Shown: in pieces, positions 46,832 to 50,973 of the stretch
Position numbering within the stretch: position 1 is the stretch's first letter
Layout: the number at the start of each line of letters is the position of its first letter
DNA from: Lachnospiraceae bacterium
GTDB lineage: Bacteria; Bacillota; Clostridia; Lachnospirales; Lachnospiraceae
NCBI GenBank assembly: GCA_018384375.1
Contig: JAHAYJ010000105.1
Location: forward strand, 1-51,526
DNA length: 51,526 nt
Direction of reading: 5' to 3'
The notes under the pieces: model-generated
Database searches by the model: none
What the model was told of the DNA's origin: nothing
The model's input: the letters and a program-made list of their open reading frames with translations, nothing else
Translations under genes and position numbers: made by a program

Positions 46832-47116
46832 ATGGGAAAGAAGAAAGAAGAGATCGAAGCCGAAAAGAAGAGAGAAATTGTCAGACAACTTCGGAAGGGT
46901 CCGGATCTCGAACAGTATGTTGAGGGTAAAAAGCGGAAATTCACCACTTATGCTCGTGGCGCAAGCCTCTATTCCATGAACTATTATTCGTTTGTGAATC
47001 TGGCTAAAGAAGCCGGGGCAAATATCCAGATTAAGAAAAAGGTAATTGTTGATCTCGATATTCTTGAGAAATATATCGAGGAACAGTGCAGAGAGGAAGG
47101 TATTGAAAATGTATAA
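46832..47116 (+). CDS. Small element protein, DUF6462-like (first copy)
   Basis: A 94-residue basic protein with a charged N-terminal helix and a C-terminal core reading YARGASLYSMNYYSFVNLAKEAG then a short beta and helix segment ending YIEEQC. This core looks like a winged-helix or excisionase-type DNA-binding fold and resembles DUF6462, found in mobile elements of Lachnospiraceae. AGAAAGGAAAAAG precedes the ATG. The next gene encodes a related protein and overlaps its end by 8 bp. A DNA-binding role in excision or partition control is inference. Confidence 0.7.
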   Translation: MGKKKEEIEAEKKREIVRQLRKGPDLEQYVEGKKRKFTTYARGASLYSMNYYSFVNLAKEAGANIQIKKKVIVDLDILEKYIEEQCREEGIENV

Positions 47117-47366
47117 CAGGAAAAAAATAGATGATCAGGATAACAGCAAAATCGAGAATATCGCAAAACTGGTTCCGAATGGCAAGAAAAAGTGGGTTCG
47201 GTACGATGAGGGTGCTGTTCTATATTCTATGGGAATCAATTCGTTCAGACAGCTAGCAAAAGACGCGAAAGCTATATATCGCGTGAACCGTATTGTTCTT
47301 GTAAACACAGAAAAAGTAGATGAATATTTGGAACTCATGTGTGCGGATGATCCGTCAGATTTTTAA
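47109..47366 (+). CDS. Small element protein, DUF6462-like (second copy)
   Basis: An 85-residue protein from the ATG at 47109 (AGGAAGG eight bases upstream, inside the preceding gene). Its core, VRYDEGAVLYSMGINSFRQL with a following AKDAKAIYRVNRIVLVN and YLELM end, aligns along its length with the first copy, so the two are paralogues. Overlap with the first gene suggests coupled translation and perhaps a heterodimer. It lies 14 bp before parA. Confidence 0.72.
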   Translation: MYNRKKIDDQDNSKIENIAKLVPNGKKKWVRYDEGAVLYSMGINSFRQLAKDAKAIYRVNRIVLVNTEKVDEYLELMCADDPSDF

Positions 47367-47380
47367 GGAGGTAGATGGTT

Positions 47381-48163
47381 ATGTGTAAGGTGATTGCTAT
47401 TGCAAATCAAAAAGGTGGGGTCGGAAAAACAACTACAACTGTAAATCTTGGAATTGGTCTTGCGAGTGAAGGTAAAAGGGTTCTCTTGATTGATGGAGAT
47501 CCGCAGGGATCACTTACGATCAGTCTCGGTTACAGAGAGCCGGATAGGTTGGAGTTTACTTTGGCCTCTCTTTTATCAGAGATTATAGAAGAACAGAAAC
47601 CATCGGTTAGTAAAACCCTAATCCATCATGAGGAAGGCGTAGATCTTATTCCGGCCAATATTGAATTATCTGCTTTGGAGATCAATCTTGTAAACGTTAT
47701 GAGCAGAGAAGTGATGCTTAGAAGCCTCTTAGAATCCATTAAGTCGGAATATGACTATATCATAATCGACTGTATGCCCTCACTTGGAATGCTTACGATA
47801 AACGCCCTGGCCTGCGCAGATAGCGTGCTGATACCAGTCCAGGCTGCCTATTTACCAGTAAAAGGTTTGGAACAGTTGATAAAGACGATAGGCCGTGTAC
47901 AGCGTCGATTGAATAAGAAATTATCCATAGAAGGAATTCTTCTTACTATGGTAGATTCCAGAACAAATTATGCCAGGGATATTTCTCATTTGGTGGTTGA
48001 TACTTATTCAGATCAGCTTGGCGTTTTTGATACATCGATCCCTCTTTCTGTAAGAGCTGCTGAGATCAGCGCAGAGGGTTCCAGCATTTATCAATATGAT
48101 CCAAAGGGAAAAGCAGCTACTGCATATAGAACATTGACGGAGGAGGTGATCAGCCATGGCTAA
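47381..48163 (+). CDS. parA: ParA-family partition ATPase
   Basis: A 260-residue deviant Walker ATPase. The ATG at 47381 is chosen because AAGGAGGTAG is then well spaced. The P-loop is KGGVGKTTT (about residues 11-19), with the signature lysine, DGDPQGSLT (Walker A') and [15 protein letters not shown] (Walker B). It binds DNA as an ATP dimer and moves ParB-bound DNA so that the element is inherited. No N-terminal DNA-binding extension is present, as in Soj-type ParA. The stop overlaps parB by 8 bp. Confidence 0.93.
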
Positions 48164-49079
48164 AAGAGTAGGTCAGAAAATTAAAATGACATCCATCGAT
48201 GAATTGCTGGGAGTTCCAACAATCACAGGATGTGATGAAATAGAAGTGGCTCGGATCCATCCGTTTAAGGATCATCCATTCAAAGTTTTGGATGATGATA
48301 AGATGCATGATCTTGTAGAAAGTATTATGATGAATGGTGTACTAGTTCCTGTCACAGTACGTCCTTTAGAAGATGGTGATTATGAGATGATCTCCGGTCA
48401 CCGACGGTTATTCGCAGTAAATCAGATCGGTTTAGAGAAGATCCCGGCTATCGTAAAAGAATACGATGACGATGAAGCTGTTTTGGCCATGGTGGATTCC
48501 AATCTGCAGAGAGAAGAGATTCTTCCAAGCGAGAAAGCATTTGCATATAAGATGAAGTATGATGCGATGCGAAGAAAAGCAGGCCGACCTTCCAAAAATA
48601 ATTCCTCCCAATTCGGGAGAAATTTTCAGACTGATATTGTTCTTGCCGAACAGGTTGGTGAAAGCCGAGGACAGTTGCATCGATATCTTCGCCTGGTGGA
48701 GCTTATTCCGCCAATACTTGATCTGGTAGATAAGAAGGCTTTGGCTCTGGCCACAGCTGTTGAGGTATCTTTTCTGGATCATAAGATACAGGCAATGCTC
48801 TATGATTATATGCTGGAAAATGATATCTGCAAGACGTTTCAGATTTTTGCAGTCAGGGACTATCTGAAGGAACACGATACAATAAGTAAAATGGAGCTGA
48901 TCAGGATCCTGAATGAGAATGCTCCTTTAAATGAGAATAACAGATTTCAAAAGATAACCCTTACAAAGGATAAGTTAAGGGAGTTCTTTCCGGTCTTCTA
49001 TACAAAGTCTCAGATGGAGAATGTACTGTTCAAATTACTTGAGGACTGGAAGAAGGAGAATGCAGATACGGAGGGATGA
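48156..49079 (+). CDS. parB: ParB/Spo0J-family partition protein
   Basis: A 307-residue protein with the ParB N-terminal domain (about residues 25-115; [17 protein letters not shown] is represented by [13 protein letters not shown], and the CTP-binding motif region SGHRRLFA and MVDSNLQRE) and a helix-turn-helix core (about 130-210; [19 protein letters not shown]). The C-terminal part is charged and probably dimerises. It should bind a parS-like site, which I could not identify in the window. It overlaps parA at its start and the small membrane protein at its end, so all are in one operon. Confidence 0.92.
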
Positions 49080-49366: not shown

Positions 49367-49668
49367 TGCGTGTAGCAGGATATTTTGCACAGGGGGCAAT
49401 GCTCTCTGTGTAAAAATATCTTGTGCTTTGATTGGGGCTGTGATAATCTCTAATTGCAAGAGGCATGATAGGTTAAACTCAAAACATTGTTTGTGTGGGT
49501 TTATCATTGTTTATGAAAGTGAATGATGATAAACAGAGGAAAACAAAGAATTTAGTTTAATTTATATTGTCTGGTATCATATGTGCCCTAATACGTGGGG
49601 GTATTGTATCTTGCCAGGCTATTTTTGTGCCTCTTAGTAGATTAATACATCACTAGGAGGATTTTTTT
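49367..49668. other. Non-coding region before the RNase III-like gene
   Basis: About 300 AT-rich bases without coding character. It contains an inverted repeat GTTTATCAT (49499-49507) / ATGATAAAC (49526-49534), a TTGTCT-16-TAATAC promoter-like pair near 49570, and the ribosome site TAGGAGG before 49669. No parS consensus, tRNA or known RNA is seen. It probably carries the promoter of the RNase III-like gene. Confidence 0.45.
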
Positions 49669-50793
49669 ATGAACACAAACGATCTTAATTACGTCCAGAA
49701 TCACATCGATTACAGATTCAAGAATCTGGATCTGCTGCAACAGGCATTTATTCGGAGGTCGTATTCCGAAGAACATGGCGGCGGGGACAACGAAGTATTA
49801 GAGTTTATCGGAGATAAGGCATTAGACCTTATGGTTGTAAAGTTCCTGTCCGATAAATATGGCTATTTTGACCATGAGGATGAAGAGGATAACAATGGCT
49901 TCTACACTTTAATTCCTGGAGCTGAAGCGAGCTGTGACGATGATTCCGAAGATTATCCTAACTATTATTATAATGAGTACGATGAAGGTGAACTGACTGA
50001 ATTTAAGGCACAGCTGGTTCAGAAGAAAACTCTTGCTGATCGCATAGATTATCTAGGGTTTGCAGAGTTTCTTACAATGAATAAAAGCGATGAAGAAGCA
50101 GAGGTATATAATAGAGCTTCCGTTAAAGAAGATCTTTTTGAAGCCATAATTGGTGCCGTAGTATTAGATTGCAACTGGGACATGAAAGTGGTTGAACATG
50201 TTGTAGAGTATATGCTGGAGCCGGAGGTTGAACTCGACAATGACGATGACGGGGCTTTCAACTATATAGGTGCACTGCAAGACTGGGCACTTTCGAAAGA
50301 AGGGGAATTACCTTTATATCATGTAGAACCATATAACACTGCCTGGATGTATATGGGAAACTACATAAGAGGTAACTCGAGACCGTTAAATGTTCCGACA
50401 CCGAAGTATCAGTGCAAGATTAAGTTGCCGGGAATAGATGAGGTTTTCCTGGACTTTGGAGATTCACAAGGCGAGGCTAGAATGCTGACGGCCAAGACTG
50501 CATTGGATTATATTGAAAAACATGGATTAGAGTTTTCTATCAGGGATGAGATCGAAGATCCCAATTATGATGACTCTATAAACCAGCTGGAAACACTTGC
50601 CAGAAGAGGATATTTTTCAATTCCAAAGTATCAGTTTGAAGAGACTCATGATGAAAACGGCAATCCAATTTGGGATTGTGAATGCAGCATAGAAGAGATA
50701 GGAGTAGTTACTCACGGTGAATCTTCGTCTAAGAAAAATGCGAAGAAGCAAGCGGCATTTGATATGCTGACTCACGTTTTGGAGGAGGAATAA
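49669..50793 (+). CDS. RNase III-domain protein with two C-terminal dsRNA-binding domains
   Basis: A 374-residue protein. Residues 8-185 form an RNase III domain: RFKNLDLLQQAFIRRSYSEE, the signature NEVLEFIGDKALDL (E45 and D49 match the metal-binding acids), EGELTEFKAQLVQKKTLAD, and EDLFEAIIGAVVLD (D155 and E158 match the other two catalytic acids), so double-strand cleavage is possible. An acidic insert (about 67-106, many Asp/Glu) separates these blocks. Two dsRNA-binding domains follow: about 198-285 (divergent) and about 302-372 (ending SSSKKNAKKQAAFDML, a canonical dsRBD end). Housekeeping bacterial RNase III has one such domain and about 230 residues. The element context (ParA, ParB) and absence of smc or ftsY neighbours argue that this is an accessory enzyme. 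TAGGAGG precedes the ATG. Confidence 0.85.
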   Translation: MNTNDLNYVQNHIDYRFKNLDLLQQAFIRRSYSEEHGGGDNEVLEFIGDKALDLMVVKFLSDKYGYFDHEDEEDNNGFYTLIPGAEASCDDDSEDYPNYYYNEYDEGELTEFKAQLVQKKTLADRIDYLGFAEFLTMNKSDEEAEVYNRASVKEDLFEAIIGAVVLDCNWDMKVVEHVVEYMLEPEVELDNDDDGAFNYIGALQDWALSKEGELPLYHVEPYNTAWMYMGNYIRGNSRPLNVPTPKYQCKIKLPGIDEVFLDFGDSQGEARMLTAKTALDYIEKHGLEFSIRDEIEDPNYDDSINQLETLARRGYFSIPKYQFEETHDENGNPIWDCECSIEEIGVVTHGESSSKKNAKKQAAFDMLTHVLEEE

Positions 50794-50796
50794 GCC

Positions 50797-50973
50797 ATGG
50801 CGAAATATGCATTCAATTATGATTCCGGTGAGTATGAGTATATAGAAAGAGACGGCTTTAGTATTGATCGTGGTGAATACGTCTATAACTGGGACGACAG
50901 CGAGTATCGTCGCGAGGAAGAAGAGGAAGAGGAACGTCGGCGAGAAGAACGAAGAATGTGGGAGGATGATTGA
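50797..50973 (+). CDS. Small charged protein, 58 residues
   Basis: A 58-residue protein beginning MAKYAFNYDSGEYEYIERDG and ending in a Glu/Arg block (REEEEEEERRREERRMWEDD). The first half is rich in Tyr, Asp and Gly with a repeated (S/R)GEY pattern; the second half should be a charged helix. GGAGGAGG lies nine bases before the ATG, within the end of the RNase III-like gene, and its stop overlaps the next start as TGATG. The tight coupling suggests that it is made with the RNase III-like protein. No family is recognised. Confidence 0.65.
   Translation: MAKYAFNYDSGEYEYIERDGFSIDRGEYVYNWDDSEYRREEEEEEERRREERRMWEDD

Follow-up and report, generated by a model that had tools for sequence, protein, structure and literature searches.

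A sporadically distributed RNase III with two dsRNA-binding domains and a conserved structured leader RNA that may serve in its autoregulation

An RNase III gene with the distribution pattern of horizontally moved DNA, and encoding two successive dsRNA-binding domains (dsRBDs) after the catalytic domain, lies directly behind a conserved structured leader RNA which, within the genomes searched, is found only in front of close homologues of that gene and is followed by a hairpin predicted to pair the Shine-Dalgarno (SD) sequence. The gene is near the end of a stretch of 51,526 nt (here the window; Lachnospiraceae bacterium, assembly GCA_018384375.1, contig JAHAYJ010000105.1). The reading put forward here is that this horizontally moved RNase III is autoregulated via its own leader, in the manner of rncO, and our confidence in it is evenly divided.

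The gene (49669..50793, + strand) is an ORF of 374 aa in which the RNase III domain takes up residues ~1-190, a first dsRBD ~199-295 (with an insert at ~224-245) and a second dsRBD ~303-372. The original prediction of an RNase III with four catalytic acids is confirmed by Pfam and by an alignment of 20 homologues. The protein matches Ribonucleas_3_3 (E=2.8e-17, 63.5 bits, cut-off 35) and Ribonuclease_3 (6.1e-15, 56.3 bits, cut-off 27), both scores exceeding the Pfam gathering scores for the RNase III family (PF14622/PF00636), and E45, D155 and E158 are each present in 20/20 aligned homologues and D49 in 19/20, the exception being an N in the plasmid protein of R. albus. The 374-aa enzyme would presumably cleave dsRNA. 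The R. albus protein (L019:11569-13089, on pRUMAL01) is 506 aa long and has an extended N-terminus, also seen in the G421 and G139 homologues. Pfam recognises the second dsRBD (dsrm, 1.7e-8 at residues 304-368) and makes no call on the first dsRBD alone, for which the evidence is profile comparison and a predicted model. Against a profile of the 20 homologues, bacterial RNase III chains including their single dsRBD align to profile position 264-268 and the dsRBD of TARBP2 aligns separately at 287-353, while the tandem-dsRBD protein R2D2 aligns across both domains to a second profile, built on residues 191-374 (E=7e-6). AlphaFold2 predicts the order helix-strand-strand-strand-helix twice, with moderate confidence at 199-295 and high confidence at 303-372. 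As modelled, the catalytic domain is followed by two successive dsRBDs, and the two dsRBD-like regions first proposed, including a dsRBD fold in residues 195-290, are borne out by the profiles, the R2D2 alignment and the AlphaFold2 model together. The acidic insert that had also been noted is seen at residues ~62-108, a variable segment of low AlphaFold2 confidence.

That the enzyme is something other than the housekeeping RNase III, as had been supposed, is upheld at several levels. Its match to NCBIfam TIGR02191 (8.2e-41, 139.9 bits) stays under the equivalog cut-off of 166.25, and a second, normal rnc of 230 aa is carried by contig C101 of the same assembly, behind an ORF which we take to be plsX by its motif. 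In a tree of RNase III proteins a branch supported at 100/100 parts 24 accessory rows from nine housekeeping ones. The tree was built without the incomplete G1066 homologue at a contig end and without the near-copy BRZ; the housekeeping rows came from 9 of the 14 loci tried, in + frames only, and any of them above 260 aa was to be trimmed to its C-terminal 260. For the second G758 copy the start was shifted by 50 codons to the homologous ATG. A long branch in this tree is a warning on its rooting and on the placement of the G661 homologue. In that homologue (L079:2270-3475), which sits on a very long branch, several catalytic acids are apparently lost in an alignment read by eye, and it is likely an inactive relative. 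The possibility that the gene of the window is the housekeeping rnc, or a duplicate of it, is ruled out by the separate 230-aa rnc and the tree: it is neither the sole rnc of its assembly nor grouped with housekeeping enzymes.

Homologues are sporadic. Matches were found in 2/37 genomes of the genus, in 10/397 of the family (the own genome, six others with close homologues, two with distant ones and one with an 81-aa fragment), in 12/392 of the order, 6/391 of the class and 1/269 of the phylum, this last being the own genome; the genus, family, order and class samples overlap and match limits applied to each sample. Among plasmids the query is covered to 80% or more by a single record, pRUMAL01 of R. 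albus 7, and among phages no match reaches that coverage, the phage matches being 25-29% identical. Four IMG/VR contigs carry a homologue, namely L029 and three with identical matches (L088/L089/L090) which are probably one phage; two viral scans gave no further relatives and another returned L029 again. On the viral contigs (L089:5302-11047 and L029:6796-11026) the RNase III gene immediately follows genes resembling large serine recombinases, where a run of tail- and holin-like genes ends; these genes were named by eye, with Resolvase and Recombinase matched in a pooled scan. The end of the tail and holin genes is the usual site of lysogenic cargo. Horizontal movement is further suggested by the enzymes themselves, because those of the window and of the rumen genome RUG091 are 97% identical, the G033 homologue (52%), from the same genus as the window, groups with another genus in the tree, and two copies in G758 occupy different tree positions. 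Taken together, a sporadic gene in varied surroundings, on a plasmid and on viral contigs, has the pattern of one that has moved horizontally. The G758 copies belong to two diverged RNase III units ~14 kb apart on contig C20 (L065 and L066), with genes for a reverse transcriptase and for a type IV restriction enzyme between or near them.

What moves seems to be a compact unit. Between window and RUG091 the DNA is 98.0% identical from -294 nt of the start codon to +1150 nt and divergent outside, and the break lies early in a downstream ORF (50797..50973, + strand). This ORF encodes a 58-aa acidic protein with the motif YNWDDSEYRREEEE and no Pfam match; a similar ORF is directly downstream in 7/25 loci, so that it is best described as an optional companion. 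All-against-all clustering of the neighbours at 25 homologue loci gave no cluster common to most, and a conserved gene partner was accordingly rejected as a candidate. Upstream, the window holds genes for ParA (47375-48163, + strand) and ParB (48156-49079, + strand), both identified by Pfam/NCBIfam and both outside the conserved unit. Two tandem DUF6462 genes (46832-47366) behind lysS, unlike NCBIfam models, mark the start of an element-like region.

With ParA and ParB in the region, the original prediction had proposed an RNA of this element as a possible substrate of the enzyme, in control of copy number or transfer. The par and two DUF6462 genes do lie directly upstream in the window, the whole set of two DUF6462 genes, ParA, ParB and a membrane protein recurs in the near-copy BRZ (L017), and a homologue is carried by the plasmid pRUMAL01. 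The tie between element and enzyme is weakly supported: of the loci surveyed, none but the window and L017 have an adjacent ParA-ParB pair. In G033 a ParB-family protein is encoded ~2 kb upstream, in G1090 par and DUF6462 genes lie at a greater distance, and the stretches examined of the remaining loci hold no par genes. Moreover a terminator-like stem (49383..49415, + strand) separates the parAB operon from the RNase III unit, which has its own leader. Processing of an element RNA is on this evidence very improbable.

The original prediction also allowed for action on foreign or host dsRNA in defence or counter-defence. Of this, a defence role in which the enzyme acts alone against phages or mobile elements, destroying the dsRNA of invaders, is a better candidate although still a doubtful one. 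It draws on the sporadic distribution and on the neighbours, of which 124 were listed and 117 scanned: PADLOC matches at E<=1e-10 occur near 8/19 close loci (among the 30 of 117 neighbours that were scanned singly) and include BrxC, type IV restriction, a Hachiman-like helicase, AbiD, an AbiO/Nhi-like protein, GajB weakly and two candidate systems, and there are matches to Cas3/Cas8c models in a pooled scan and a DpnII beside the G1107 homologue. An enrichment of defence genes near the homologues is nevertheless not established, because ordinary chromosomal genes also yield PADLOC matches, a set of 40 ordinary genes of the window giving matches to five PADLOC families at this threshold. Generic AAA/DUF4143 proteins account for the PDC candidates, and no PADLOC model matches the enzyme itself (three RNase III homologues were scanned, to E=0.1). 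Probable type I-C cas genes, placed by gene size from the Cas3/Cas8c matches, are beside the second G758 copy; since they accompany just one of the two copies there is no general CRISPR link, and a CRISPR accessory role was set aside. Among the 117 pooled neighbours three match a Macro domain and two an ADP-ribosylglycohydrolase; motif searches and a further Pfam search did not locate the loci of the Macro-domain proteins. In E. coli the macrodomain protein YmdB is reported to regulate RNase III. There is also a report that RNase III can be required to silence prophage toxin messages (PMC3531473).

In contrast to the shifting neighbours, the ~175 nt directly upstream of the gene are conserved, with DNA similarity reaching to about -215 in all close homologues while the surroundings differ. 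Neither this leader RNA nor the SD hairpin figured in the original prediction. The core of the leader (49459..49633, + strand) is defined by alignment and covariation, and scores 155 bits with the covariance model built for it (R1), of which it is itself a training sequence. Its fold is closed by helix P1 (5' strand 49460..49468 with 49625-49633), in which 94.8% of cells are paired and three pairs show double changes. Inside P1 stand P2 (49473..49481 with 49552-49560; 6/9 pairs changed on both sides) and the third consensus helix P3 (49487..49490 with 49543-49546), leading to the P4/P5 hairpin (49499..49534; helix 4) with its GNAA tetraloop cap, here GAAA at 49515-49518, and beside them the P6 hairpin (49571..49617; 49571-49576 with 49612-49617), in which 4/6 pairs are changed on both sides; all are on the + strand.

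The support for this fold comes from 17 leaders aligned by sequence alone, a set without the divergent L029 and without RUG091 and BRZ, which are near-copies. Twenty-one of the 42 consensus pairs are changed on both sides, as against 6-9 when the partners are slid, and 95.1% of cells are paired as against 85.3% for shuffled and 36-48% for slid alignments; the covariation score is 0.430, against 0.241 shuffled and 0.071-0.127 slid. The window leader as such (49452-49668) folds with -67.8 kcal/mol (z -6.24, 200 shuffles). A GNAA loop is present in 17/17 aligned leaders (13 GCAA, 3 GAAA, 1 GUAA), and the P6 loop is variable and less conserved than any other part. Outside its training set R1 finds leaders at the expected place in the viral contigs, at 42.9 bits (E=3.1e-6) in L088/L089/L090 and weakly, at 26.8 bits, in L029. 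Throughout 397 genomes of the family it finds seven copies, all of them immediately in front of a close homologue and none away from the gene, in a search with stricter filters and at most seven candidates scored per genome in which all seven matches are training sequences; in the own genome there is no copy away from the gene, the second match being that hairpin read on the opposite strand. Upstream of four distant accessory homologues (L019, L036, L051, L079) R1 has no match, and so the leader RNA seems dispensable for some such enzymes. No known Rfam family reaches threshold over 49367-49720 of the window, the sole match to E=5 being DdR11 at 17.1 bits against 65. By its position the leader presumably belongs to the rnc message. 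A scan for a sigma-70 promoter before the window leader gave no good one, the best having 8/12 matches, no better than shuffles; in relatives the average is 9.5/12 against 8.0 shuffled.

Between core and start codon a further hairpin, P7 (49630..49660, + strand), is predicted to pair the SD sequence AGGAGG (49655-49660), and its 5' strand overlaps the 3' strand of P1 at 49630-49633. P7 is predicted to pair most of the SD in 19/19 leaders (z -2.2 to -6.3 against mononucleotide shuffles; the near-copies RUG091 and window both counted), through pairings that vary in sequence, GGAGG with CCUUC or CCUCC in some and GAAAGG with CCUUUC in others. When the leader up to the P5 loop is deleted in silico, predicted SD accessibility goes down in 14/18 cases, slightly up in two and stays at zero in two. 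In 10/19 full-length leaders P1 barely forms in silico (<1.5 expected pairs), and the SD is largely paired even before any truncation (unpaired fraction <=0.23 in 18/19). The leader may thus be OFF by default, which leaves it uncertain in which direction it would switch.

The upstream RNA could also be a stable non-coding partner which, as a ribonucleoprotein, directs or activates the enzyme in an arrangement like that of RNA-guided mobile nucleases. A compact closed fold with a conserved GNAA-capped helix, found only beside the RNase III gene, would suit such a partner, and two dsRBDs would provide extra RNA-binding capacity; set against this, the RNA ends at an SD-covering hairpin, as cis-regulators do, no conserved unpaired guide-like segment was recognised, and the P6 variable loop is where conservation is lowest. 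We think this improbable, and cis-regulation is favoured because of the position of the leader, its linkage to the gene and the SD hairpin. A leader acting in cis need not answer to the accessory enzyme, and might respond to host RNase III only, a ligand, temperature or an element protein, since SD hairpins and mutually exclusive helices such as the overlapping P1 and P7 are general regulatory devices. But self-regulation better accommodates a leader that is strictly linked to one enzyme family in many otherwise unrelated surroundings and that contains a long duplex such as RNase III takes as substrate; another signal appears unlikely.

Autoregulation through the leader would then work as follows. 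The mobile unit would consist of the 5' leader RNA (~175 nt and SD hairpin) and the RNase III gene, and the leader would fold into a long imperfect GNAA-capped hairpin, P2-P5, held by the closing helix P1. The accessory enzyme, or host RNase III, would bind and cleave the P2-P5 hairpin, whereupon the 5' strand of P1 would be lost, the bases freed would become available to P7, the ribosome site would be covered and translation would drop. With the enzyme occupied by dsRNA elsewhere, the leader would stay intact and more enzyme would be made. The components have precedents in part: E. coli RNase III is reported to bind and cleave a structure in the rnc 5' UTR, with abundant targets titrating the enzyme away (PMC5371410), and S. 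aureus RNase III is reported to cut its own coding region (PMC3386247). Cleavage of the leader, the direction given to the switch, and a role for the enzyme as cargo directed at dsRNA of foreign or antisense origin are what this reading would add to the computed structures. An extension of it, in which the module is a dsRNA sensor whose leader releases the tandem-dsRBD RNase III when foreign or antisense dsRNA titrates the enzyme, and so amounts to an inducible defence, is unlikely.

Bacteria are usually described with one host-serving RNase III having one dsRBD. If the present reading is true, mobile elements, in carrying a two-dsRBD RNase III with a covarying leader, would also have dsRNA processing among their cargo. 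The leader would then give a direct handle on two questions, whether the dsRNA load is sensed by a bacterial RNase III via its own message, and whether bacterial dsRBDs recognise a conserved GNAA-capped stem. This last touches on the substrates themselves, as the loops of bacterial RNase III substrates are held, in a published account, to be little conserved (PMC8708148).

Compared with known systems, the enzyme shares with bacterial RNase III (rnc; TIGR02191) the catalytic domain, the signature motif, the four acids and the position of the first dsRBD, and differs in the second dsRBD and the acidic insert (close homologues have 344-379 aa), in scoring under the equivalog cut-off, in its non-housekeeping locus and in its separate clade. 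A single RNase III domain in an enzyme outside Dicer is likewise found in budding yeast, and Dcr1 there has two dsRBDs. Both Dcr1 (PDB 3rv0) and Rnt1p (5t16) are eukaryotic, have other N-terminal parts and go with an AGNN loop, whereas the window leader has GNAA; the dsRBD of Rnt1p is reported to read a tetraloop-capped stem (PMC8708148). The order and fold of the two dsRBDs are those of R2D2, TRBP and Loquacious of RNAi, although these lack an RNase III domain and the similarity is weak, E=7e-6 being the best value. Similar in setting is phrog_28637 (plasmid/phage rnc), a mobile-element RNase III family which the window enzyme matches at 9.6e-25, but whose profile of 233 positions is without the second dsRBD. 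As for control, in E. coli rncO too the RNase III gene is reported to be preceded by a structured 5' UTR containing duplexes such as the enzyme cuts (PMC5371410); the window leader departs from it in its three-way fold, the P1/P7 overlap and the SD-covering hairpin. The literature titles and abstracts surveyed gave no description of the enzyme-leader pair. The kind of enzyme and the kind of control are thus both known, and it is their combination that, judged from the literature surveyed, appears new.
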